Below, piece by piece: positions 18,985-35,035 of a DNA stretch of 41,002 bases. The notes beneath the pieces are model-generated. The model did not search any database. It had not been told where the DNA came from and saw only the letters and a program-made list of their open reading frames with translations. Source of the stretch: a virus; the IMG/VR virus record IMGVR_UViG_3300030329_003676, positions 1-41,002 of that record; one strand, 5' to 3'. The stretch's first letter is position 1. Each line of letters begins with the position of its first letter. The translations under genes and the position numbers were made by a program.

Positions 18985-20774
18985 TAGACACCTCCAAATG
19001 CTTGTGCCATAGAAGGCGGGCCTTGTTCTGCAACCATTTGTTGTTGCTGTTGTGCAATCATTGCTTCTTCTTCAGGAGACATCTGAGGCTCCTGTGGAGT
19101 ATAGAACATTCTTAAAATCTCTGTCATCTCTGCTGGGTATTCATATATTGCTATAACAGCCATAGTTGCTGATGGGTCTCCTTGAGCACTTCTAGCAAGT
19201 ACCGATTCAAATAAAACATTCTCAGCTTTATTCTTTCTAATACGTTCTTGTACCTTAGCTATATTCTCAAGACCATCAATATTATCTTGTAGAGTTTCTA
19301 CATCTATAACTCCAGCTTGAAGTAACTGTAATCCTGTAACAATCTTCTGTGGTTCATCGAAACCAGCCATTACTCCATAAATACGTCTTGTTCTATAGTC
19401 TCCTCCGATATCATTTATTGGACTATAGTTCTCTGCGAAAGCAGTTCCTCCATAGAAACCCTGTATAGGTTTTTTACTTAATTCAGGTATCTGTATAGCA
19501 AGTAATGTATCTAGTTCTAATCTCTTTTCATCCATCTTCTGTAAACCATGTCTAATGATTTCTCTATATTCATTAATCATTAATGACATTGTGCTATTCA
19601 ATTCATTAAGTCCTGCCCCTGTAACAAAGGAGTTTGGAGATTGAGAGTCATCAGTTACTGGATAACCACCAACCATTCTAAGTTGTCTCTCTAATCTATC
19701 TACTTGTTGAAAGAGCTGGTAAGGAATATTGTTTTGTGGCTTACTTACTTGAGTACCAGGAGCAAGATAGTTAATTGCAAATCTACCTTTTCTATACTGA
19801 CCTGATTCAAGTTCACCAGATATGTTAGTCTCAGTAAATACTGAGTCTTCCATAGCTATAGCTGACATAATATTAATCTTCGCCATCATAGCCATTAAAC
19901 CAATCACATGGTCATACTGTCCTTTGAGTTCATCAAAGGAAACTCTCTTCATAAAAACAAATGGTGGAGTACTTAAGAAGTTAGGTATAAAATCAAGAAT
20001 CATATTCTTTTCAGGGAATACAATATAAGTTCCACCTAAGTCATAGTATTCAATTATTCTTACACCCTGACCTGTATTATCTTCCCAGTTATTTTGTTTT
20101 TCATTCTCATAAGTCTGCCCAAGACCACCTGCACCAAAAGCTGCTTCTTGTTGATTATCATCTTCATCTACCTTCAAAATCTCTTTAGCGAACTCTGGAT
20201 AGATTTGAGCTAGTTTATATCTAGGTACTCTTCTAAGTACAGCTAGTTCCCTTGGTTCTTGGTCTGGTCCAAAGTTTCCAGGAAATGTATCATAAGGGTC
20301 TCTTAGTTCTGCTGTAGGATATATATAACCATTTTTGTCAGTATTAGTTGTTATAATCCAAGCAGCATATCCATAACCAGGTAACCATCTAGCAACCTGT
20401 GCTAATTGTAAATTAAGATTTTGTTTCTCATCATAACTAGTAACAATACGTTCTAATCTCTCTGCTCTTACCTTTGCTCTATCAGAAGTATTATGATTTA
20501 ATATATCTACTTTTACTTGAGGTACTCCTGATATCTTTTGAGCTAATCTATCTATACCAGACTGAAGCATATTAGGTGCTGGTAAAAGGTCTGCATCTGT
20601 AGTCTCCATCTTGTTTCCAAGTAAAGCCTTCATACCATCAGCACCACCATTGAGTATTGCTTTTATCCTAGCTTTCTGTACTTGCCTATGTTTAGTAGGC
20701 TTGCCTGTTACAAGTTGAGTTGCATTGTCAACTATCTCTTTATAGTTCTTTATATCTAGGTTCTCTATCCCCAC
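18984..20774 (-). CDS. Portal protein
   Basis: This 596-residue protein is encoded directly after the terminase, overlapping it by 10 nt and starting with GTG (GAGG 6 nt upstream). Features of portal proteins visible here are an N-terminal helical region with many Lys/Arg, the pattern RAERLERIVTSYDEKQNLN followed by WLPGYGYAAWIITTN (wing strand region), a DPYDTFPG loop, and a long helical stem region (LNSTMSLMINEYREIIRHGL, MDEKRLELDTLLAIQ). The C-terminus is Gln/Met-rich (EEEAMIAQQQQQMVAEQ), as in many portal barrels. It should form the dodecameric DNA gate at one capsid vertex. The call is firm on gene order and size; the precise portal family is not assigned. Confidence 0.8.
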   Translation of the reverse strand: MGIENLDIKNYKEIVDNATQLVTGKPTKHRQVQKARIKAILNGGADGMKALLGNKMETTDADLLPAPNMLQSGIDRLAQKISGVPQVKVDILNHNTSDRAKVRAERLERIVTSYDEKQNLNLQLAQVARWLPGYGYAAWIITTNTDKNGYIYPTAELRDPYDTFPGNFGPDQEPRELAVLRRVPRYKLAQIYPEFAKEILKVDEDDNQQEAAFGAGGLGQTYENEKQNNWEDNTGQGVRIIEYYDLGGTYIVFPEKNMILDFIPNFLSTPPFVFMKRVSFDELKGQYDHVIGLMAMMAKINIMSAIAMEDSVFTETNISGELESGQYRKGRFAINYLAPGTQVSKPQNNIPYQLFQQVDRLERQLRMVGGYPVTDDSQSPNSFVTGAGLNELNSTMSLMINEYREIIRHGLQKMDEKRLELDTLLAIQIPELSKKPIQGFYGGTAFAENYSPINDIGGDYRTRRIYGVMAGFDEPQKIVTGLQLLQAGVIDVETLQDNIDGLENIAKVQERIRKNKAENVLFESVLARSAQGDPSATMAVIAIYEYPAEMTEILRMFYTPQEPQMSPEEEAMIAQQQQQMVAEQGPPSMAQAFGGV

Positions 20775-22672
20775 GGTGCCTCATTTGTCATATCGTAATC
20801 ATACTCCTGGAAGCTAGCGTCATAGTCTAGACCCATGTTCGCAGCTTGCTCTTTATTCATTCTTCTAAAAACTTTCATTGGAAACCATCCTGCCATAACT
20901 ATATCAGTTTTTTCCTTATTTCGCTGAGAAACAGGCTTTCCATCAAAATACAATAATTGTGTTCTATAAGCATTAACTTTAGCAAGACTTTCAGAATTTC
21001 CTGTAGGTAAATAGATTTTATTATTTTCAAAGAGATTAGCCATAGAACCTACACCATACATAGGGTCGTGTTTATTTTTTCCAGTAACATGCCCCTGCAT
21101 AGTTATTCCACTTCTTAAAACAAATTCTTTTATCTTATCATCTTGTCGTATAGCAGATTGAAATCCATTCTCTTCAATAACCCAATGTTGTAAATCATAT
21201 TTATGATACCAGTCAGACATAATCTGTAGTGCATGCTTCACTCCCCCACCCTGCCTATTCTCTAGGTCTATAAGGAATAACTCACCTCTATAGGCATTTA
21301 TTCCCCATAGTACTGCAGCTTGATATCCAGAACTAGCTGGGTCAAGTCCTGCAACTAAATGTAAGCTGCCTGGTATCTGCCCAATTACTAGGTCTGGTCT
21401 CATACACTTATCAATCATGTCAATAGAAAAGATTTGTGTGCCTTCTACAAAGGCTTGGTTGTAATAAACCATTTCGTATATCTGCCTACCACCTGTTGTC
21501 TCTGCTGCCTGTTGCCTAGACATTAACCATCTCATAGTTCTCTTAGAAGGCCAGAGTAAACAATCTTGATGTTCATCAACTAAGTGGTCAGGGATAGTAC
21601 ATTCTACTTTATGTGCTGTCTCAACAATAGATTCGAAACTATCGTTTGCTAATAAGTGATGATATAAATCATCTGAGTGTTGTCTTGAACCTATAACTAC
21701 TACTGCCGTATGTTCCTCTTTACGGCTCGATAGAGTAGTCGTCCACCATTGCCTAGTGTTCTCCCTAGCACCAGGTTGCATAGTCGTTTGATGGTCTTCA
21801 ATGTCGTCTGCAATAATAAGGTCACAATCTCTCGATAAGATTTTGCCACCTTTCCCAACAGCCACCATTGTAGGAGACTTAATCCCTGGGACGGTTCTTG
21901 TGCCAACAGTGAATTGATTCTGCGACCAGTTCTTACCAGACCTGTTATCGGGTTTAAAGTTCTTCCCTGGAGCACAAAAGTCTTCTTGTAGTCTTTCATT
22001 CTGTTCAAGATGGTCAAGTACTGAACTGACAGCATTCTTCGCAATGTCTTCATTCCCACCTACCCACATAATTCGGATGTTTGGATTTAACATTATCTGG
22101 TAGACAGCAAAGTGTATTAATAGTTCTGTCTTTCCATGTCTTGGGGGACTTAATATTAATAATTCGTTTCCTTCATCTATTGCTTTAAGTATACTACTAA
22201 TCCAGTTTTCGTGAAAATCTGCAGTTTCATACTTCTCCCCAGTCTCTGTCGCGAAATACTTAGAGCGAAAGCTAGAAAAATTTTCTAAATTTGATTTAGT
22301 ATCATCAGATAACTCCCAGCCTTCGGCTGCAACTTCCGTTTGAATATCTATCTTGTATGCAGCGAGCATGCGAGAGACAGTTGCTGAACTGGTGTCCAAC
22401 ACTGCTGCTACCCCCGCAACGTTTATATCTCCGTTAGCTAGGGATTCTGCATATAAAGCTCTAAATTCGTCATAGTGTTTGCCTCTACGTACACTTGCGT
22501 AGTCGCCTTCTTCAGCTTTGAAGTCTTGATTGATAGGTTTCTCCTCAACCTTCTGGTTATGTCTCTTGGTTTGAGCCCAGGTTCTTTTATTACATTGTTC
22601 AGAACAGAACTTACGTTGCTTCCCTGTTAAGCGTTTCCTACAATTAGGAGCTGTACATATCAAATTTGGCAT
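20765..22672 (-). CDS. terL: Terminase large subunit with N-terminal zinc finger and HTH
   Basis: This 635-residue protein is the ATP-driven DNA packaging motor and headful/cos nuclease. Residues 6-27 carry Cys6, Cys11, Cys23 and Cys27, a treble-clef-like zinc finger. Residues 83-105 form a helix-turn-helix (VAAVLDTSSATVSRMLAAYK). The ATPase domain has a Walker A at 175-183 (SPPRHGKTE) and Walker B at 284-290 with D289/D290 followed by E292. The C-terminal nuclease domain begins near residue 430 (VAGLDPASSGYQAAVLWG), with a further acidic motif (WVIEENGFQSAI). No separate small terminase is seen, so the N-terminal DNA-binding modules may supply site recognition. It is the first gene of the late operon, behind a good promoter. 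Confidence 0.92.
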   Translation of the reverse strand: MPNLICTAPNCRKRLTGKQRKFCSEQCNKRTWAQTKRHNQKVEEKPINQDFKAEEGDYASVRRGKHYDEFRALYAESLANGDINVAGVAAVLDTSSATVSRMLAAYKIDIQTEVAAEGWELSDDTKSNLENFSSFRSKYFATETGEKYETADFHENWISSILKAIDEGNELLILSPPRHGKTELLIHFAVYQIMLNPNIRIMWVGGNEDIAKNAVSSVLDHLEQNERLQEDFCAPGKNFKPDNRSGKNWSQNQFTVGTRTVPGIKSPTMVAVGKGGKILSRDCDLIIADDIEDHQTTMQPGARENTRQWWTTTLSSRKEEHTAVVVIGSRQHSDDLYHHLLANDSFESIVETAHKVECTIPDHLVDEHQDCLLWPSKRTMRWLMSRQQAAETTGGRQIYEMVYYNQAFVEGTQIFSIDMIDKCMRPDLVIGQIPGSLHLVAGLDPASSGYQAAVLWGINAYRGELFLIDLENRQGGGVKHALQIMSDWYHKYDLQHWVIEENGFQSAIRQDDKIKEFVLRSGITMQGHVTGKNKHDPMYGVGSMANLFENNKIYLPTGNSESLAKVNAYRTQLLYFDGKPVSQRNKEKTDIVMAGWFPMKVFRRMNKEQAANMGLDYDASFQEYDYDMTNEAPWG

Positions 22673-22701
22673 AAAGTCTAAACCTTCGTAGATTGTTGCG
22701 T

Positions 22702-22738
22702 AGATTTTATTATAGTGCTATTGTACTCTATATTACAA
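22702..22738 (-). promoter_or_regulatory. Promoter for terminase/late operon
   Basis: On the minus strand TTGTAA (complement of 22733-22738) and a perfect TATAAT (complement of 22709-22714) are spaced by 18 nt, placing the start near 22702, about 30 nt before the terminase ATG at 22672. This is a sigma-70-like promoter directed into the late operon. The same gap also separates it from the oppositely directed early genes. Confidence 0.55.
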
Positions 22739-22888
22739 ATATTAGGAGTCATTAAACAGTCACAGGTAAAGGGGCCATCGGGGGGCCAAAAGCTTAGAAT
22801 CGGTAGTACGATACAGCAGTAACACAAACTAAGTACCCAAGAACTGTCCAAAATTCTTAATCAACCTTCTCTATATAGGTAGCCCGCT
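22739..22888. other. Gene-free divergent region with a G+C-rich tract (candidate packaging site)
   Basis: No reading frame is supported here. The notable content is a 17-base G+C-rich tract at 22771-22787 (GGGGCCATCGGGGGGCC), which contains GGCC inverted around ATCGGGG and stands out in very AT-rich DNA. Cohesive-end and packaging sites often lie beside the terminase gene and are G+C-rich in actinophages, so this is a candidate cos/pac site. Nothing in the sequence proves it. The rest contains only short repeats. Confidence 0.3.
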
Positions 22889-23074
22889 ATGTCCAAGAAA
22901 GCCAATCCCTACTTACGTTATATAGAATTACCATCATATTTTTTTCTACATACGTTATATATACTTGACACTCAGATTGATATAGGTAAGTCAAAGAAAC
23001 CAGCAGAGCTGGAACCAGACAAGCTGGTTACTTACCTAATCAAAGCCAAGCAGAGCTTGTCTAATATGGAATAG
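22889..23074 (+). CDS. Possible small early protein
   Basis: This 61-codon frame (MSKKANPYLRYIELPSY...) is the first plus-strand frame right of the terminase. The N-terminal part is aromatic-rich and hydrophobic (FFLHTLYILD). The C-terminal half is charged and helical (KKPAELEPDKLVTYLIKAKQ), resembling a protein-protein helix. The only upstream ribosome-like site is AGGTAG, 7-9 nt before the ATG. Its stop lies in the left arm of a 13-bp inverted repeat. Coding is plausible from composition, but the weak start site leaves doubt. Confidence 0.45.
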   Translation: MSKKANPYLRYIELPSYFFLHTLYILDTQIDIGKSKKPAELEPDKLVTYLIKAKQSLSNME

Positions 23075-23606: not shown

Positions 23607-23655
23607 CAGTATTGTTCCCCTTATTCAGGGGAACATACTGCTTTTTTTAATTTTA
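23607..23655 (+). terminator. Intrinsic terminator
   Basis: CAGTAT-t-GTTCCCC (23607-23620) pairs with GGGGAAC-ATACTG (23628-23640), a 13-bp stem with one bulge and a 7-nt loop. It is followed directly by CTTTTTTTAATTTT. This is a classical rho-independent terminator for the plus-strand transcript that carries the zinc-ribbon gene, and the clearest terminator in the window. Confidence 0.8.
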
Positions 23656-24177: not shown

Positions 24178-24260
24178 GTATATATTAGCTAGCACTTAGG
24201 CGGACACCATTAGTTAAACTAAGGTAATTAAAGTTCCAGTAAGTGCTTGCTAATATGTAT
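24178..24260 (+). ncRNA. Long-stem RNA element 1
   Basis: The arms 24178-24198 and 24240-24260 form a 21-bp stem with a single T-T mismatch and two G-U pairs. Inside, ACC-a-TTAGT-taa-ACTAA-GGT (24206-24225) forms a hairpin and GGA/TCC a helper helix. The 5' arm carries TAGCTAGCACTTAGG, similar in layout to the 5' arms of the elements at 25901, 26027 and 27097. It precedes the small gene at 24274 by 13 nt. It could be a leader element of that gene or a processed small RNA. Confidence 0.55.
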
Positions 24261-24273
24261 AAGAAAGGAAAAA

Positions 24274-24420
24274 ATGAAACAAAAACCATTTAATGAATAT
24301 TATTTTGTTTTTATTAATGGACAATTTAAGAAATCCTATGCGAAAGACAACGCAGATAAAAATAAAATAATTAAAACTTATACTTATTTGTATCCTAAAG
24401 AAAAGGTTACAGTTAAATGA
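24274..24420 (+). CDS. Small unknown protein
   Basis: This 48-residue basic protein (MKQKPFNEYYFVFINGQFKK...) has AAAGGAAAAA before the ATG. The pattern of a short strand with aromatic residues, a turn (INGQ), then a Lys/Asp-rich helix (SYAKDNADKNKIIKTY) and a final strand (KEKVTVK) is compact enough to be a folded mini-domain. It is framed by RNA element 1 and a core hairpin. Function is unknown. Confidence 0.55.
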   Translation: MKQKPFNEYYFVFINGQFKKSYAKDNADKNKIIKTYTYLYPKEKVTVK

Positions 24421-24422
24421 AT

Positions 24423-24462
24423 AATATGGGGGATTTCCCCTTGGGAAATCTTCCCCCATATT
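24423..24462 (+). promoter_or_regulatory. TTTCCC/GGGAAA-core hairpin, copy 4
   Basis: AATATGGGGGA (24423-24433) pairs perfectly with 24452-24462, 11 bp. TTTCCC pairs with GGGAAA (24434-24439 with 24443-24448) around a CTT loop. It begins 2 nt after the preceding stop codon and is followed by A-rich, not U-rich, sequence, so it is not a standard terminator on this strand. It precedes the gene starting at 24513. Confidence 0.6.
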
Positions 24463-24512
24463 AAAAAAGATAAAAAATTAAAAATGTCTAACGACAAGAA
24501 AGGAGCAATCCA

Positions 24513-24929
24513 TTGCTTAAACAATACACAGGTACACTTCAAAATGTAAATGAAGTGATATTAACAGGTGCATTGACAACAGTCACTAAGGACGGAAGTC
24601 CTAGAACTGGTGTATCACCTAAAACAGGAAACAAATATATTAATGGAATAAAATTTGTTTTCGACGGTAGAGAAAATAAGCAAGCAAGTGAGACTTGTGT
24701 TGCATATGGTAATGAATTGGTTGAGGAAATTGAAGAATTTCTTAAAGCTAATCATAAACCAGAACAACCAAGACCATTTGGTAGGCTTATGATTAGAGCT
24801 AGAATACAATCTAATAACTATGAAAAGAATGGACAAATTCAATATAAAAATGAATTAAACATTCTTGACATATGGAAAGCACCAGTCAAGGTTGACAATA
24901 GCTTTGAATATTCTTCTGAAGAAGAGTAG
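24513..24929 (+). CDS. Putative single-stranded DNA-binding (OB-fold-like) protein
   Basis: This 138-residue protein starts at TTG with AGGAG 7 nt upstream. The pattern resembles OB-fold single-strand binding proteins: an early strand pair (YTGTLQNVNEVILTGALTTV), a loop, GIKFVFDGRENKQASETCVA (strands), then RLMIRARIQSNNYEKNGQIQ and ELNILDIW, ending in an acidic tail (SFEYSSEEE). An early-region location beside recombination genes fits. It lacks the DDDIPF-like tip of bacterial SSB. The call is based on strand pattern and tail acidity only; other nucleic-acid binding roles are possible. Confidence 0.4.
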   Translation: MLKQYTGTLQNVNEVILTGALTTVTKDGSPRTGVSPKTGNKYINGIKFVFDGRENKQASETCVAYGNELVEEIEEFLKANHKPEQPRPFGRLMIRARIQSNNYEKNGQIQYKNELNILDIWKAPVKVDNSFEYSSEEE

Positions 24930-24945
24930 CTCATAATAGTAGATT

Positions 24946-25003
24946 AGGTAGTAAGTTTCGTATAGGAAAATGCCCGATTTAAGACGGTGTTGGCTTACTA
25001 CCT
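24946..25003 (+). ncRNA. Long-stem RNA element 2
   Basis: AGGTAGTAAG (24946-24955) pairs perfectly with CTTACTACCT (24994-25003) around a 38-nt interior holding possible CCG/CGG and GCC/GGC helices. A pyrimidine-rich tail TTTTCTATTTTCTC follows, so it may also terminate transcription. The 5' arm starts with AGGTAG, like the elements at 25901, 26027 and 27097. Confidence 0.55.
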
Positions 25004-25019
25004 TTTCTATTTTCTCAAC

Positions 25020-25049
25020 ATATGGTATCAGTAAGCACTGATATCATAT
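25020..25049 (+). promoter_or_regulatory. 13-bp hairpin upstream of gene
   Basis: ATATGGTATCAGT (25020-25032), loop AAGC, then ACTGATATCATAT (25037-25049): 13 consecutive pairs with one G-U. It lies 42 nt before the next ATG and is too stable to be accidental. It could be an operator (dyad) or an mRNA-stabilising hairpin. Confidence 0.55.
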
Positions 25050-25091
25050 ATCTTAAGTGTTTCGAAAATATAAAAATAGAAAGGAAAAAAC

Positions 25092-25472
25092 ATGAAATTT
25101 GAAACTAATACTAGTTCAGCTGGAGCAATTCTAGATTACATGCCGACGATAATGAGAGACGACATGATAAAAGATTTAGTTATAATACCAGAACATGATG
25201 ATACAAAGCATCATGGGGGAGTTAAATTTGTTTTACATGCAAACGGAAAAAGTGCAACTTGGGAAATAATACATAACTTCAATGATTACTTTGATATTAA
25301 ATGTGTAGATAACAATGACGGAAGAGTTGTCCAAGATAAAGATATAGACGCAAATGTATTAATTACTGCATTTACTGATATATTAGACGGACATTTTGAA
25401 AGTATTGTAAATACTATAAAAGAAGAAATATCAGAAAACGATAAAGATTTCTTTAATGAAAGTCAATTATAA
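25092..25472 (+). CDS. Unknown early protein
   Basis: This 126-residue acidic protein has AAAGGAAAAAAC before the ATG. The predicted layout is an N-terminal helix (SAGAILDYMPTIMRDDMIK), a beta sheet (DLVIIPEHDD, GVKFVLHANGKSATWEIIH, YFDIKCVD) and a C-terminal helix (VLITAFTDILDGHFESIVNT) with an acidic tail. An HDDTKHH cluster near residues 35-41 could bind metal, but I recognise no enzyme family. It is the first of a pair with the 58-codon gene downstream. Confidence 0.6.
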   Translation: MKFETNTSSAGAILDYMPTIMRDDMIKDLVIIPEHDDTKHHGGVKFVLHANGKSATWEIIHNFNDYFDIKCVDNNDGRVVQDKDIDANVLITAFTDILDGHFESIVNTIKEEISENDKDFFNESQL

Positions 25473-25485
25473 ATAAGGAGAAACA

Positions 25486-25662
25486 ATGGCATCTCAAAGA
25501 GATAGATATATGTATGAGCAACATGAAGTTAATCTACATGTATTGGAAGGTATCAAAAATCTAGCAAAAGGAGTAGAGGCATTACACAAAATGCTTATAA
25601 CTCTTACTGAGTTAGTACTAGGCATAGATGATATCGAAAAAATCCTAAACGAAGAGGAATAA
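25486..25662 (+). CDS. Small helical early protein
   Basis: This 58-residue protein (MASQRDRYMYEQHEVNLH...) has AAGGAG 6 nt before the ATG, 13 nt after the previous stop. Apart from the first few residues it is one long amphipathic helix with leucine/isoleucine heptads (LEGIKNLAKGVEALHKMLIT, then LTELVLGIDDIEKIL), so it is probably a coiled-coil dimer. Such small phage proteins often act as inhibitors or adaptors. Function is unknown. Confidence 0.6.
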   Translation: MASQRDRYMYEQHEVNLHVLEGIKNLAKGVEALHKMLITLTELVLGIDDIEKILNEEE

Positions 25663-25682
25663 ATTCTCTAGAGTGAAAGGAT

Positions 25683-25794
25683 ACACTAACTAGCGATAGT
25701 TAGTGTGTAACATATTAATTGCTGACACAATTAAAAGAAAAGAGCTTAGCATAGCGTGCTATATTAAGCGACAGACTTAGTATGTTACACACTA
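25683..25794 (+). ncRNA. Multibranched RNA element A with two exclusive folds
   Basis: A perfect 14-bp stem joins 25701-25714 (TAGTGTGTAACATA) and 25781-25794, enclosing two hairpins: TTAATTG-ctgaca-CAATTAA (25715-25734) and GCTTA...TAAGC (25744-25769) with an inner ATAG-cgtg-CTAT. Alternatively, 25683-25692 (ACACTAACTA) pairs with 25697-25706 around a GCGA (GNRA) loop, using six bases of the long stem's 5' arm, so the two folds cannot coexist. The right arm ends ACTACCTATT, the complement-like form of the AGGTAG motif in neighbouring elements. There is no coding frame here. Confidence 0.55.
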
Positions 25795-25848
25795 CCTATT
25801 ATATCACAAAAGAGTCTACTAATTAACATGTTATTAGGAACGCTAAAA

Positions 25849-25886
25849 TATAAGGTTAATGTCGTAATAAATTGCAAGTCCTTATA
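25849..25886 (+). ncRNA. RNA element B (short stem, shared loop)
   Basis: TATAAGG (25849-25855) pairs with CCTTATA (25880-25886) around a 24-nt loop that is identical, except for its last base, to the loop of element C. The 28-base direct repeat between B and C spans 25851-25878 and 25920-25947. The conserved loop and altered closing stem suggest the loop sequence is functional. Confidence 0.5.
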
Positions 25887-25900
25887 AACTCAGTGATATT

Positions 25901-25972
25901 GTAGGTAGCTTGTAGCACATAAGGTTAATGTCGTAATAAATTGCAAGCCCTTGTGTGTTACAAGCTATTTAC
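25901..25972 (+). ncRNA. RNA element C (24-bp stem)
   Basis: 25901-25924 pairs with 25949-25972 over 24 consecutive positions including four G-U pairs, closing the same 24-nt loop as element B. G-U pairs such as the two in AGG/TTT indicate an RNA-level structure, since a DNA inverted repeat would be expected to be perfect. The CTTG in the 5' arm can also pair with loop CAAG, an alternative pairing. Confidence 0.6.
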
Positions 25973-26028
25973 TATGCTTGGTAAGTCAGTTAAGTCTGAA
26001 TTAATATTGAAAAATATTAATACATAGT
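25971..26028 (+). ncRNA. Linker hairpin with GAAA tetraloop between elements C and D
   Basis: ATTAATATT (26000-26008) and its partner at 26013-26021 form nine pairs capped by a GAAA tetraloop. ACTATG/CATAGT (25971-25976 with 26023-26028) closes the linker and overlaps the feet of the stems of C and D. A TAAGTC direct repeat lies in the linker. The whole 25683-26148 stretch is therefore almost continuous RNA helix. Confidence 0.5.
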
Positions 26029-26148
26029 AGGTAGCTTGTAGCACATAAGGTTTGAGAGGTAAAAATTGTGAGGATAATATTTCCAGTTAATCATAGACTG
26101 GCTCCTTATGCCGATATCAATTTCCCTTGTGTGTTACAAGCTATTTAT
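26027..26148 (+). ncRNA. RNA element D (same stem as C, larger interior)
   Basis: The 24-base 5' arm (26027-26050) is identical to that of element C, and the 3' arm (26125-26148) differs in one base. The interior is 74 nt instead of 24 and unrelated in sequence. It contains AAATTG/CAATTT (26062-26067 with 26118-26123) and the hairpin CCAGT-taatcatag-ACTGG. The element ends 28 nt before the next gene's ATG. Confidence 0.6.
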
Positions 26149-26175
26149 AAAAATAGTTAGAAAAGAAAGGAAAAA

Positions 26176-26397
26176 ATGAAATCTGAACTTAAATTCGATT
26201 TAGATGAAAATCTAGAAATGCTTAATAGAGAAGATTTAATAGGAGTTATTAAATGGACACTAAACGACTTAGATAGTTGGAGCAATGCACAAAAAGCAAC
26301 TGAACAAGTTGCAGGATTTGCATCAATGCTATACGAAGCTATAGAATATCAAATAAGTAAAGCTGTAGCTAGACATAATAGAAGCGAGGAACAATAA
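26176..26397 (+). CDS. Small early protein, first of a chain of coupled mini-genes
   Basis: This 73-residue acidic helical protein (MKSELKFDLDENLEMLNRED...) has AAAGGAAAAA before the ATG. Two helices are predicted (LIGVIKWTLNDLDSWSNAQ, VAGFASMLYEAIEYQISKA). Its stop overlaps the next start (TAATGG), the first of six such junctions in a run of mini-genes ending at 27033. No family is recognised. Confidence 0.6.
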   Translation: MKSELKFDLDENLEMLNREDLIGVIKWTLNDLDSWSNAQKATEQVAGFASMLYEAIEYQISKAVARHNRSEEQ

Positions 26398-26630
26398 TGG
26401 AAGAAGTTTTATCAGAACATATTGTTAGTTATTTACATTGTAAATTATGTGTTGAAGAACTACCAAAGGAAACTTCGCCTCGTGATTATATAAATATAGA
26501 AATAGCTATAAATTTAGACAATCAAATGTTATTAGGTTGTGTAAGACACGGCGAACATGTAGGAGCTTTTACACTCAAAGAAGATTATACTCCTGAACTC
26601 ATAGGACAAGGTTGTGATTGTCATGAATGA
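26397..26630 (+). CDS. Small cysteine/histidine-rich protein
   Basis: This 77-residue protein starts within the previous stop (TAATG). Cys15-x2-Cys18 (CKLC), a further LGCVRHGEHVG segment and a terminal CDCHE could form a zinc site. The middle (DYINIEIAINLDNQMLLGCV) looks like strands. It is probably a small zinc-binding or nucleic-acid-binding protein; its partner is unknown. Confidence 0.55.
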   Translation: MEEVLSEHIVSYLHCKLCVEELPKETSPRDYINIEIAINLDNQMLLGCVRHGEHVGAFTLKEDYTPELIGQGCDCHE

Positions 26631-26700
26631 CGGAGTATCTTATACATCTGATGGTTCAATTATACATAATTCATGGCTAGAAAAAGAAGAAGAAGAATAA
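26623..26700 (+). CDS. 25-residue acidic micro-protein
   Basis: The frame starts at an ATG eight bases before the previous stop ends, and itself ends TAATG with the next gene. The product (MNDGVSYTSDGSIIHNSWLE...) closes with a run of glutamates. Its support is the unbroken chain of coupled starts and stops; there is no separate ribosome site. Function is unknown. Confidence 0.4.
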   Translation: MNDGVSYTSDGSIIHNSWLEKEEEE

Positions 26701-26807
26701 TGAAAACATTTAATATCTATGAGATTAGTAAAGAAGATATTTGTTGCACAATAGGTGTAGATTATCCACCATACACATTACCAATAGAATGCGATTGTGA
26801 GAAATAA
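26700..26807 (+). CDS. 35-residue cysteine-containing micro-protein
   Basis: The start codon overlaps the previous stop (TAATG). The product (MKTFNIYEISKEDICCTIGV...) contains Cys-Cys and ends PIECDCEK, four cysteines in 35 residues, so a small metal site or redox peptide is possible. It is supported by translational coupling on both sides. Confidence 0.45.
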   Translation: MKTFNIYEISKEDICCTIGVDYPPYTLPIECDCEK

Positions 26808-26893
26808 TGGAAACTATTTATTACTATACAAATGAAGACTGGGCTAATTTAGAACTATTTGAAAAGCGTAGAGGAAAGTTAGAGGAAGAATAA
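26807..26893 (+). CDS. 28-residue micro-protein
   Basis: The start overlaps the previous stop and the stop overlaps the next start (TAATG twice). The product (METIYYYTNEDWANLELFEK...) has an aromatic first half and a charged helical end (KRRGKLEEE). It is believed real mainly because it keeps the coupled chain intact. Function is unknown. Confidence 0.4.
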   Translation: METIYYYTNEDWANLELFEKRRGKLEEE

Positions 26894-27033
26894 TGACATT
26901 TTATAAAGAGTTTCAACTTAAATGTAATTGTGAAAAGAAAAAAGATTTAAGATGGGATAGTATAAATTCTTTTTACTTTTGTGATGAATGTAATAAATCA
27001 TTTAATGAAGATGATTTTAACAACCATCTATAG
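26893..27033 (+). CDS. 46-residue zinc-binding mini-protein
   Basis: This is the last gene of the coupled chain. Cys-x-Cys (LKCNCEKKKD) and Cys-x2-Cys (FYFCDECNKSF) with a following His (NNHL) resemble a small zinc ribbon or finger. The spacing of about 18 residues between pairs suits a single Zn knuckle fold. It probably binds nucleic acid or a host protein; this is inference. Confidence 0.5.
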   Translation: MTFYKEFQLKCNCEKKKDLRWDSINSFYFCDECNKSFNEDDFNNHL

Positions 27034-27050
27034 CTGTTATAATAGTGCTA
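27020..27050 (+). promoter_or_regulatory. Extended -10 promoter
   Basis: TGTTATAAT (27036-27043, TG-n plus perfect TATAAT) lies just after the stop of the mini-gene chain, with a weak -35 (TTTAAC) about 16 nt upstream. Transcription from about 27050 would first produce RNA element E and the tRNA-like element, then enter the MoxR operon. Confidence 0.5.
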
Positions 27051-27063
27051 TCTATAAGTAAGA

Positions 27064-27088
27064 ACTAGTTAACTGCCCTGTGAACTAG
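27064..27088 (+). promoter_or_regulatory. Inverted repeat near the predicted transcript start
   Basis: ACTAGTT (27064-27070) and AACTAGT (27082-27088) flank a 11-nt loop. It lies just below the extended -10 promoter and could be an operator or the first hairpin of the transcript. Confidence 0.35.
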
Positions 27089-27096
27089 TCACTGAA

Positions 27097-27200
27097 AATA
27101 GGTAGCACGCAGCATATAGGTTCTTGTATATTGATGAAAAAAATACAAGTGGGTTAATGGAACTTCCCTTATAAAATTTATATGTTGCGTGCTATTTATT
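27097..27200 (+). ncRNA. Long-stem RNA element E
   Basis: 27097-27117 pairs with 27180-27200 over 21 positions with three G-U pairs. Inside, CTTGTAT/ATACAAG (27123-27129 with 27143-27149) and GTTC/GAAC form secondary helices. The arms are analogous to those of C and D (both start TAGGTAGC and lead to TA-AGG). Where C has GCTTGTA/TACAAGC, E has GCACGCA/TGCGTGC, so the sequence has changed on both sides while pairing is kept. This is the best evidence that the structure itself is selected. Confidence 0.6.
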
Positions 27201-27213
27201 TAATTAATAGTAT

Positions 27214-27290
27214 GGGGGTGTCCAGGTATGCATAGATTTGTTAATCCCTTTTCAAATCTATATACGGGGGTTCGATTCCCCCCACCTCCA
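27214..27290 (+). tRNA. tRNA-like/tmRNA-like element without an anticodon arm
   Basis: This 77-nt element has a 7-bp acceptor stem (GGGGGTG, 27214-27220, with CACCTCC, 27283-27289) in which the third pair is G-U, followed by discriminator A at 27290. It has a perfect T-arm (five G-C pairs, 27266-27270 with 27278-27282, loop TTCGATT). In place of D and anticodon arms there is an 11-nt single strand containing AGGTA, then a 9-bp stem (27232-27240 with 27253-27261) with a 12-nt loop that cannot present a normal anticodon. G3:U70 plus A73 is the alanyl-tRNA synthetase signature shared by tRNA-Ala and tmRNA, and the 3' half closely resembles tmRNA ends. It could be a charged tRNA mimic, a decayed tmRNA, or an attachment-site remnant; no integrase is seen. 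CCA is not fully encoded. Confidence 0.5.
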
Positions 27291-27314
27291 CAATTTCTTA
27301 TAGAAAGGAGAAAT

Positions 27315-27848: not shown

Positions 27849-28128
27849 AGCTATACCACCATTAGCTGGTGTTAATAGAAGTGGTAAACAACCAACAATA
27901 TTAACTGATAATAAAGTAAAAACTTTATTATCTACACCAACAGAATGGTACATAATAGCTACAACAGACAATTGGATATCAGGTGTCAAATCCAATATAG
28001 AAAATATGACACAAACAAACATTCGACATCTAGCTGATAAAGGTAGATTCGAAATTAAACAAAGAAAGAACGATGATGGAGAGATAGATATCTATTGTCG
28101 TTATATACCCAACGAAAGGAGCATTTAA
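27820..28128 (+). CDS. Small basic protein upstream of MoxR gene
   Basis: This 102-residue basic protein overlaps the preceding gene by 29 nt and ends TAATG with the ATPase gene. It opens with a Lys-rich strand (MTIKKTKIVRAIPPL) and contains TPTEWYIIATTDNWISGV, followed by NIRHLADKGRFEIKQRKND and a final strand (IDIYCRYIP). The C-terminal half looks like a winged-helix DNA-binding fold (helix IRHLADKG, then two strands). It could be an operon regulator, though this is inferred from pattern only. Confidence 0.5.
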   Translation: MTIKKTKIVRAIPPLAGVNRSGKQPTILTDNKVKTLLSTPTEWYIIATTDNWISGVKSNIENMTQTNIRHLADKGRFEIKQRKNDDGEIDIYCRYIPNERSI

Positions 28129-28868
28129 TGGATTGTTGGAAATTAGTAGCTGCAGCTATTGGAAATGCAGATAGGATATTGCTATATGGTCCTCCAGGAA
28201 CTGGAAAAACATATGCAGCAGCCACAAATAATATAGGATATAACATGGACGGAGACCCTAATGTATATCAAATAACCATGACTGAAGATACAGCTTCAGC
28301 TAACTTGGAAGGTTTCTATAAACCAAGTTCAGATGGTGGTTTTGAATGGCATGATGGTATTGCTATTCAGGCATGGCGTAATGGTGGAAGGTTAGTTATT
28401 AACGAGATTGACCACGCATCTCCAGACGCAATGACATTCTTACATGCTATATTAGATGACAAAGACATTGCACAATTAACATTGAACAATGACAATAAAG
28501 AAACTGTAAAACCAGCAGAAGGATTTACTGTTATAGCTACTACAAACTCTCTACCTGAGAGCTTACCAATGGCACTTAAAGATAGGTTCCCTGTTAAGAT
28601 TAATGTAGATACTGTACATCCAAAAGCCTTAGAAATATTTCCAGATAGTTGGAAAAAGATAGTTGAAGATACTTCCTTATCACAAGATACAGAGGAAAGA
28701 TTATCTGTAAGAGCTTGGAGAGAATTCTTTGAACTAATAGCTAAAGGTGTAGATAAAGAGGAAGCTGGCTTATTAATATTTGGAGAAAGGTCCGATGATT
28801 TATTAGACGCAATAATGTTATCTGATGATATAGATGAATCAGATTTAATTACTGAAGAAGATGAATAA
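28128..28868 (+). CDS. MoxR-type AAA+ ATPase
   Basis: This 246-residue protein starts at 28128 (AAAGGAGC 7 nt upstream); an in-frame ATG 33 nt earlier lacks a ribosome site. Walker A is at 21-28 (GPPGTGKT), Walker B at 88-95 ending NEID (typical of the MoxR branch), sensor 1 near Asn140 (VIATTNS) and the arginine finger at R153 (ALKDRF). The C-terminal lid is present but short (LSVRAWREFFELIAKGVD). MoxR ATPases work as hexamers with VWA-domain partners to insert metals or remodel proteins. The VWA partner is the next gene, overlapping by 8 nt. The target in the infected cell is unknown. Confidence 0.85.
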   Translation: MDCWKLVAAAIGNADRILLYGPPGTGKTYAAATNNIGYNMDGDPNVYQITMTEDTASANLEGFYKPSSDGGFEWHDGIAIQAWRNGGRLVINEIDHASPDAMTFLHAILDDKDIAQLTLNNDNKETVKPAEGFTVIATTNSLPESLPMALKDRFPVKINVDTVHPKALEIFPDSWKKIVEDTSLSQDTEERLSVRAWREFFELIAKGVDKEEAGLLIFGERSDDLLDAIMLSDDIDESDLITEEDE

Positions 28869-32051: not shown

Positions 32052-32516
32052 ATGAATGAAAAATTCAAGAAATTGCTAGCTCCATTTCCAAAGGAGTTAG
32101 TTCGAAAAGCTCCAGCTGGAAAGTTTGGAGACTATGTACCTCACGCACATTATGTAGAAAGACTACGTGATAGTGGGGTTGTATATAGCTGGGAATGTGA
32201 ACCTATTGTTGGTAGACATGAAGGCGAATCAAGAATAGTTGGTGCCAAAGGTACTATAACCATAGAAGGTATGGGAACATACCAAGGATTTGGAGATATA
32301 GATACCTTTAAGTTAAACAATAAAAAGTTTAATGATGGTACTAATCTAAAAGACGCTGAATCAGACGCATTCAAAAGAGCATGCATGAGATTCGGATTAG
32401 GAGTAGAACTCTGGTCTGGTAGTAAACAATCAGAAGAAGAGGCTACAGTTGCTGCAGCATTAGATGGTAACGGTAAAACAATCGATGATTATTCAGACGA
32501 TGAAGCACCATTCTAA
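32052..32516 (+). CDS. Rad52-like single-strand annealing protein
   Basis: This 154-residue protein has GAGGAG 8 nt before the ATG. The sequence follows the Rad52/22 annealase pattern: YVPHAHYVERLRDSGVVYSW near the N-terminus, a central beta sheet (RIVGAKGTITIEGMGTYQGF) and the typical DAESDAFKRACMRFGLGVEL helix. These proteins form rings and anneal complementary single strands in phage recombination. The C-terminus is acidic and ends DYSDDEAPF, much like the DDDIPF tip of bacterial SSB that docks repair proteins. It overlaps the next gene by TAATG. Confidence 0.75.
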   Translation: MNEKFKKLLAPFPKELVRKAPAGKFGDYVPHAHYVERLRDSGVVYSWECEPIVGRHEGESRIVGAKGTITIEGMGTYQGFGDIDTFKLNNKKFNDGTNLKDAESDAFKRACMRFGLGVELWSGSKQSEEEATVAAALDGNGKTIDDYSDDEAPF

Positions 32517-34107: not shown

Positions 34108-34746
34108 ATGCAATCAACAATACATACAAGTGGTGTTAATACACGATTTGTACCTAGAAGTGTAAGAAATGCGACTGTAGCAACTTACGATACAACTAAT
34201 GAAGATAGAAGAAAAGAGATGGAGCAATCTTTATTATACGATAATACAGACAAACTTAGTGAATTTGGGGGCAAGCGTTTTCTAGGCTTGACACCAAAGG
34301 GTAAAGAAGTCTTTGCCAAATATGTTGTAAATAGAGATGACTTAAGTATGACAGTACTATTTACACATTCACCATCTATCCTTCTCAAGGAAGGGTCATT
34401 GTTAGCTAATGACCACTATAGTTGGGGACTACATGAACAAATGAATAAGACTGGCTTGTTTATGGTACGTAAATTAAAGAAGTCAAGACCACAAGAAGTG
34501 ACAATACAAACTTTAAGATGGATAAAAAGACTTCAATTGTTAACTGAAGTAAAATACTTCAAAGCATTCAACAAAAATAAAGTTACATACAACTTTGTAA
34601 GAAGTGTAGGAAGTATGATACATCATGGATTTGGAGAAGGAAATACTAAACCAGACTTGTCAAGTATAGCTGAAGTATGGAAATGGCCTAAGAATGGACC
34701 ATACTTTAATCCTGAAGAAGCTTGGTCATATCCTGATGAGTTATAA
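34108..34746 (+). CDS. Unknown basic protein
   Basis: This 212-residue protein has GAGGAG before the ATG and a 2-nt gap from the previous gene. It begins with an extended basic part (NTRFVPRSVRNATVATYDTT). A middle domain contains FTHSPSILLKEGSLLANDHYS, followed by a helical region with KTGLFMVRKLKKSRPQEVTI. It ends with WKWPKNGPYFNPEEAWSYP. No family is recognised. Its 3' end overlaps the SET-domain gene. Confidence 0.6.
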   Translation: MQSTIHTSGVNTRFVPRSVRNATVATYDTTNEDRRKEMEQSLLYDNTDKLSEFGGKRFLGLTPKGKEVFAKYVVNRDDLSMTVLFTHSPSILLKEGSLLANDHYSWGLHEQMNKTGLFMVRKLKKSRPQEVTIQTLRWIKRLQLLTEVKYFKAFNKNKVTYNFVRSVGSMIHHGFGEGNTKPDLSSIAEVWKWPKNGPYFNPEEAWSYPDEL

Positions 34747-35035
34747 ACCATTACCAACTTATCTTAAAATAAAATCATCAAAAATAAATGGACAAGGACT
34801 CTTTACTGAAAAAGACATAAAAAAATCTAAAGTATTGGGTATTACTCATGTCAAAAATAAAAGTAAAGCCTTTGAGAATGGTGTAATTAGAACACCATTA
34901 GGTGGTTTTATTAATCATAGCGATAAACCTAATTGCAAACTATACGAAACAGATATGGGTTTCTATTTATCTACAACAAAAGATATTAAAACTGGAGACG
35001 AACTTACAGTTACCTATGAATGGTATTCTGTTTAG
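34736..35035 (+). CDS. SET-domain protein (putative lysine methyltransferase)
   Basis: The start is taken at 34736 (MSYKPLPTYLKIKSS), overlapping the previous stop; an in-frame ATG 42 nt upstream is also possible. The 99-residue product has the SET layout: INGQGLFTEKDI (GxG, residues 17-28), GGFINHSDKPNCKL with the N60-H61-S62 knot and PN66, and GDELTVTYEW with Tyr94. These residues form the SAM/lysine pocket in SET methyltransferases, including small viral ones. There is no pre- or post-SET cysteine cluster. It ends overlapping, tail to tail, a gene for a lysine-rich peptide. Methylation of a phage or host protein is inferred. Confidence 0.7.
   Translation: MSYKPLPTYLKIKSSKINGQGLFTEKDIKKSKVLGITHVKNKSKAFENGVIRTPLGGFINHSDKPNCKLYETDMGFYLSTTKDIKTGDELTVTYEWYSV

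Follow-up and report, generated by a model that had tools for sequence, protein, structure and literature searches.

Arrays of covarying RNA cassettes between the early genes of a marine phage lineage

Here we analysed the window, a 41-kb virus record from the IMG/VR collection (IMGVR_UViG_3300030329_003676, the whole stretch of 41,002 nucleotides), and describe long-stem RNA elements in its early region. That these elements form arrays of covarying RNA cassettes between early phage genes is nearly certain. The minus strand encodes the terminase large subunit (20765-22672), and a plus-strand early region with many small genes starts at about 22.7 kb. A MoxR-type AAA ATPase follows the small early genes at 28095, and the DASGSM motif of a 512-amino-acid protein at 28861 suggests a VWA domain. 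With this VWA-like protein as query, 28 related loci were found among viral contigs, and a protein nearer the elements retrieved four very close loci. Among 50,697 phage records, neither the DNA nor the VWA-like protein nor the element sequence detected an isolate relative.

The long-stem array of the early region

The arrays are located between small early genes, in the gene-sense direction, and consist of two mutually complementary arm types that alternate, Q (GCTAYYTA; RNA GCUAYYUA) and R (TAGGTAGC; RNA UAGGUAGC). Modules that run from R to Q have stems of 19-23 bp, while those that run from Q to R have stems of 8-11 bp, and the median folding energies are -36 and -20 kcal/mol, respectively. 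The commonest arm orders are Q-R-Q (39 arrays) and Q-R-Q-R-Q (29), and most arrays begin and finish with Q. We refer to the segment between two arms as the cargo. The modules of the window are listed below, with bit scores for R-to-Q modules from a covariance model of the long-stem frame that was built from 20 elements of related phages.

25695..25800, plus strand: element X, an R-to-Q long-stem module with a diverged outer arm (TAGTTAGTGTGTAACATA...TATGTTACACACTACCTA); stem score 45.6, frame model 37.4 bits (E 3e-5)
25849..25889, plus strand: second copy of the C cargo (AAGGTTAATGTCGTAATAAATTGCAAGTCCTT), with its own short stem and outside the long frame; direct repeat D2, 34 nt, 97% identical
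25898..25975, plus strand: element C, an R-to-Q module with the long stem GTAGGTAGCTTGTAGCACATA / TGTGTGTTACAAGCTATTTA and the cargo AAGGTTAATGTCGTAATAAATTGCAAGCCCTT; frame model 60.0 bits
25964..26035, plus strand: Q-to-R short-stem module between C and D, sharing its arms with C (3' arm) and D (5' arm)
26023..26149, plus strand: element D, an R-to-Q module with a large cargo of a second type (GGTTTGAGAGGTAAAAATTGTGAGG...CAATTTCCCTT); frame model 58.7 bits
27045..27108, plus strand: Q-to-R module of type I, with an 11-bp stem (GTGCTATCTAT / ATAGGTAGCAC) in which the 5' arm of E is used again
27096..27201, plus strand: element E, an R-to-Q module with the stem AATAGGTAGCACGCAGCATATA / TATATGTTGCGTGCTATTTATT; frame model 56.7 bits, compared with 37.6 on the other strand

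An initial annotation of this DNA had proposed five stems (A to E) as a single family, in which the C/D arm (GCTTGTA...TACAAGC) changes to GCACGCA...TGCGTGC in E. All five stems were found at, or within a few bases of, the positions it gave, and the change between C/D and E is exactly compensated. Scored with the frame model, the proposed family holds for C, D and E (E-values of approximately 1e-9), for which the sense strand exceeds the antisense strand by about 25, 30 and 19 bits, but not for A (19.2 bits, E 0.1) or B (13.1 bits, E 1.5, not significant). The count of copies was also incomplete, with the fourth frame member, X, and the two short-stem modules at 25964-26035 and 27045-27108 overlooked.

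The X cargo (CTGACACAATTAAAAGAAAAGAGCTT..AAGCGACAGA) also occurs in a standard-frame module of another locus (L022, 7007-7099), and the C cargo occurs in the same frame in L070, L078 and L095. Cargos related to that of D are found in four loci (L003, L012, L020 and L026), and the E cargo is kept in three (L002, L003 and L004). The 3' end of D lies less than 30 nt upstream of a start codon at 26176. Between C and D, the 3' arm of the former and the 5' arm of the latter can pair over 28 nt (inverted repeat I1, 86%), and the minimum-energy fold of the array selects this Q-to-R module. The Q-to-R module before E carries a type I cargo, AGUAAG-stem-CCCUGU-stem-CUGAA, and folds at -23.4 kcal/mol; the type I model R1 scores it at 59.1 bits (E 7e-14) and places the cargo at 27053-27101.

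The two stems that fall outside the frame are as follows.

24178..24260, plus strand: element A, a stem of approximately 20 bp that encloses a conserved core containing a CCAUN-stem-AUGG hairpin, immediately 5' of a small gene that starts at 24274
24938..25011, plus strand: element B, a hairpin 9 nt after the stop of the gene at 24513-24929, followed by TTTTCTATTTT

In five relatives (L003, L016, L022, L024 and L010), the core of element A and its pairing are kept just 5' of a start codon while the stem sequence is entirely replaced. Element A is a separate conserved leader RNA and a candidate RNA family of its own, rather than a proven member of the GTAGGTAGC family. The counterparts of element B (L016, L022, L024 and L010) are mostly short hairpins followed by T runs, and by this comparison B resembles a terminator-like hairpin outside the family. 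Intrinsic terminators, GC-rich hairpins with a T run right behind them, were rejected for the modules themselves, since none was called at C, D, E or X, and were retained for B only. Further hairpins recur after genes between 23500 and 24460, with the form TTTCCCCTTGGGGAAA and longer stems (at 23607, 23697, 23903 and 24422). These are possibly of a terminator type that lacks a long T run.

Selection on RNA pairing and distribution of the frame

We searched viral contigs with the pattern TAGGTAGCTT-N44-74-AAGCTATCTA, which is matched by at least 120 stretches. Among the 127 pattern matches listed, all 8 further bases are paired in 118, and 6 resemble chance hits, with 4 of 8 paired. Leaving aside the 8 outer pairs, which the search motif dictates, a mean of 11.17 of the 12 inner positions are paired over 82 distinct arm pairs, compared with 8.18 when partners are shuffled (maximum 8.76 in 1000 partner shuffles). 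Double-sided changes occur at all 12 inner pairs (36 arm pairs), with a covariation score of 0.796 against 0.266 for shuffled partners, and covariation collapses in a control in which the partner is slid by one column. The long-stem frame was never found in block-shuffled sequence, and a chance origin is excluded.

G-U combinations outnumber A-C combinations by 145 to 22, or by 56 to 14 without the two commonest wobble positions. Since the reverse complement of G-U is A-C, this asymmetry indicates that it is the plus-strand RNA that is maintained, and it also argues against palindrome correction of DNA. Frequent G-U pairs had been remarked on in the initial annotation, and they do sit at fixed positions. 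Its proposal that selection acts on RNA pairing, so that the stems are a phage RNA family instead of ordinary DNA repeats, is supported by the G-U excess, by covariation far above both shuffles and slid controls, and by the further copies carried by many related marine phage contigs.

We consider a DNA-level element very improbable. Under this alternative the stems would be protein operators, replication signals, or sites resembling miniature inverted-repeat transposable elements or integron attC, with arms that pair only as DNA or by palindrome correction. The arms are indeed conserved in sequence and flank swapped segments like mobile cassettes. Integron cassette arrays also have conserved ends, a variable folded middle of 50-130 nt and cassette exchange, and in these respects they resemble the arrays described here. 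However, the G-U combinations stand at particular positions, which a DNA palindrome or its correction would not maintain, the cargo has RNA covariation of its own, and the attC core boxes RYYYAAC / GTTRRRY were found at the ends of 0 of 175 modules. Unlike integrons, the arrays are selected on RNA pairing with G-U, and the unit exchanged is an RNA domain rather than a gene. Repeats that act as DNA only were rejected on the G-U over A-C excess together with the cargo covariation.

The long-stem module is present in 133 collected loci, which include overlapping stretches of the same contig, so that the number of contigs is somewhat smaller. Most belong to one phage lineage with terL, MoxR and VWA, and the terminase lineage of the window was present in 14 of 17 element-bearing records tested. 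Two element-bearing records, of 72 kb and 52 kb, lack both this terminase and this MoxR, so the arrays may also occur in other lineages. Between one and five long-module matches were counted in each record (22 records tested, antisense matches of the same place included). In the window, only a transfer-messenger RNA (tmRNA)-like domain at 27214-27293 reaches the gathering score of any of the 4227 models of Rfam 15, and none of the elements does. Permissive Rfam scans of the elements and 13 array loci returned mainly microRNA precursor models, far below the cut-off.

Among 84,980 bacterial and archaeal genomes, the same pattern was matched twice, once without a stem and once on a phage contig binned in an Actinomycetota metagenome-assembled genome (MAG). 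Outside phage contigs, the long-stem family was absent from the bacterial genomes searched. In 150 Actinomycetota genomes, the type I model had only three matches, all in one bin (G001, the MAG of locus L155). Contigs C30 and C36 of this bin look like phage contigs because both carry homologues of the phage MoxR and C30 has the same loci twice, approximately 43.9 kb apart. With the type I matches in these 150 genomes restricted to phage-like contigs, a copy of a cellular RNA was rejected. Phage contigs in an Actinomycetota metagenome bin are the sole clue to the host, and give a weak hint that it is a marine actinobacterium. A host assignment via WhiB was dropped, as no WhiB was found in 22 phage records.

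Exchange of cargo domains and dual pairing of the arms

The 327 unique modules group into 125 sequence clusters, of which 65 are single and 14 occur in both long and short frames, using a similarity score above that of all 8000 shuffled comparisons as the threshold. Covariation within the cargo was measured for type I only, and the other clusters are defined by sequence similarity. In type I, the commonest cargo, invariant AGUA and GAA flank a variable stem, and the loop CCCUGUU is near-invariant. We take AGUA/GAA to be the signature of a predicted bulged-G (sarcin-ricin) motif. Ten of the 11 type I pairs show double-sided changes, with a score of 0.613 versus 0.256.

Type I is followed by 24 different modules downstream and lies upstream of 20 different, unrelated protein clusters, and 12 different last modules occur in front of the gene family represented in the window at 27307. 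The cargos, which are compact RNA domains, are therefore swapped among arrays, frames and phages and uncoupled from the downstream gene. Given this uncoupling, a gene-specific riboswitch or leader role was not supported for the cargos, and was retained for element A. Among short-frame cargos other than type I, the first Q-to-R modules of many loci contain a C-rich stretch, for example CCCCUUU or CCCUUU. Hairpin-like sequences with an AACGCA motif are also located just 5' of the first Q arm (L035, L044, L049, L063, L068, L077, L085 and others), from which it is probable that more kinds of RNA modules lie next to the arrays.

Because the arm types alternate and are complementary, each R is able to pair with either the preceding or the following Q. 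In the window, ATAGGTAGCAC, the 5' arm of E, has one match in GTGCTATCTAT upstream (27045) and another in GTGCTATTTAT downstream (27189). The usual TT of this arm is replaced by AC (GCAC), and both Q partners read GTGC, matching the change. Across arrays, the base just outside the first Q covaries with the base just after R; at position 1 none of 500 shuffles did as well, and at position 2 as few as 10 of the 500 did.

Beside the trans and cis roles weighed below, refolding through the shared arms deserves serious consideration as a third possibility. In such a bistable switch, R would pair with the Q before or after it, and the co-transcriptional exchange from short to long stem would itself be the function, through timing, antitermination or exposure of the last Q by the ribosome-binding site, with the cargos as sensors. 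The strict Q-R-Q alternation with Q at both ends of most arrays, the covariation around the first Q, which includes the window, and the different median stabilities of the two module types would all fit such a switch. However, covariation within the short Q-R stems is weak beyond the fixed 8-9 bp, the outward covariation of internal Q arms is not above shuffles, and with such large energy differences the long stem would be expected to prevail almost every time. We regard the switch as unlikely.

Possible roles of the cassettes

No -10-like position is enriched at array fronts, and sigma-70-like sites in the window occur at chance level only, on which grounds independent promoters before the arrays were rejected. 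As no array promoter signal was seen, the array is probably part of the early polycistronic mRNA. Since the cargos are diverse and uncoupled from the downstream gene, we favour trans-acting effectors over gene-specific leaders. That the cargos are processed, trans-acting RNA effectors is a tentative reading, to which we give somewhat less than even weight. On this reading, the array would be transcribed within the polycistronic early mRNA, where the short Q-R hairpin would fold first and be invaded by the longer R-Q stem as the latter emerges. The long stems would insulate each cargo, and a double-strand RNase would probably cut them, with stable small RNAs as the predicted products. The cargos would then work chiefly in trans, the most plausible mode being that they bind and titrate host factors early in infection, and may have diversified through recombination between the conserved arms.

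Nearly as likely is a cis role of a general kind, in the processing or stability of the mRNA. The arrays would in this case stay in the early polycistronic mRNA and set the stability, RNase processing or translation of neighbouring genes, much like the RNase III sites of T7 and in line with a proposal made for the ESAS repeats of mycobacteriophages described below, and the cargos would be interchangeable nuclease-resistant or protein-binding folds. The modules point the same way as the early genes, the distance from the end of an array to a ribosome-binding site and start codon is 12-34 nt in many cases, and element A is a clear leader before one conserved gene. The long stems are also close to the duplex length used by RNase III. 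In the early region of phage T7, RNase III sites are long hairpins between early genes on the polycistronic early transcript, and a duplex of approximately 20 bp or more in an early intergenic hairpin, as in such sites, is provided by the R-Q stems (19-23 bp). To our knowledge, the T7 sites have not been described with a library of exchangeable conserved domains. Against a cis role, cargo identity does not follow the downstream gene, the next start codon is 100-400 nt away for many modules, and approximately 125 cargo clusters, some with conserved internal motifs, exceed the needs of a generic cut or stability site.

Several points weigh against processed, trans-acting effectors, or temper the evidence behind them. 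The spacing of 12-34 nt between many last modules and a start codon fits a cis role in the mRNA as well. Conservation of the dominant arm sequence goes far past the requirements of pairing or of RNase III cleavage, and a sequence-specific partner is likely. Outside the one bin with phage contigs, type I is absent from the 150 Actinomycetota genomes, and it is no obvious mimic of a cellular RNA. In addition, some arm pairs share descent, so the cell counts overstate the number of independent events, and the number of very different, fully paired arms is the safer evidence.

Trans-acting effectors could also be placed in a wider scheme, which we offer more speculatively than the effector role itself. 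The arrays may represent a combinatorial library of more than 100 phage RNA effector domains on one shared, strand-exchanging stem scaffold. This would be an RNA counterpart of protein anti-defence islands, with each domain titrating or inhibiting a different host factor and new domains recombined in at the arms.

The closest arrangement described is that of the extended start-associated sequences (ESAS) of Cluster K mycobacteriophages, in which imperfect inverted repeats separated by a spacer recur just upstream of the starts of non-structural genes (PMC3203893). These are likewise spaced inverted repeats before gene starts, in actinobacteriophages, but with 17-bp arms, spacers of mostly 4-13 bp, and a link to the 13-bp start-associated sequence (SAS) GGGATAGGAGCCC and to fixed gene families (PMC3203893). 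The SAS gave 0 matches in the window with up to 3 mismatches. The arms here are 20 nt long, with spacers of 6-92 nt (median 44), structured cargos and alternating arrays. There is also no fixed gene association, with up to 12 last modules per downstream protein cluster and one cargo before 20 clusters.

The compact structured RNAs known from marine phage genomes occur in the same kind of setting, while the elements here lack an Rfam match at curated score. We know of no shared frame with swapped domains among those RNAs, and the phage RNAs known to us are single families such as riboswitches, tRNAs and individual small RNAs. We searched the open-access PubMed Central literature on structured RNAs of marine phages, on RNA decoys of phages and on stem-loop arrays, and no account of such arrays came up. 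In one uncultured marine phage group, a single stem design carries approximately 125 domain clusters, none of them recognised by Rfam in the loci scanned. If the cargos act in trans, they would offer a large and so far unexploited collection of natural RNA inhibitors or sponges, shaped by evolution to act on bacterial targets; if in cis, the arrays would point to an unknown general mechanism that organises early phage mRNA.

Elsewhere in the early region, the window encodes a SET-domain protein (34694-35035) and a Rad52-like protein (32052-32516). Between the divergent terminase and early genes, the block at 22678-22956 is kept at approximately 70-78% nucleotide identity in nearly all relatives. 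It is mostly without an open frame and holds GGGGCCATCGGGGGGCC plus a TAGGTAGC arm.

The tmRNA-like domain (27214-27293, plus strand) follows element E and has a complete acceptor and T arm, without the tag or pseudoknots (Rfam tmRNA, 52.4 bits). A closed long stem replaces approximately 300 model positions. This domain could be a decoy of trans-translation. Similar short tmRNA matches are present in 8 of 24 related phage records, and the differences between the window and L004 preserve pairing.

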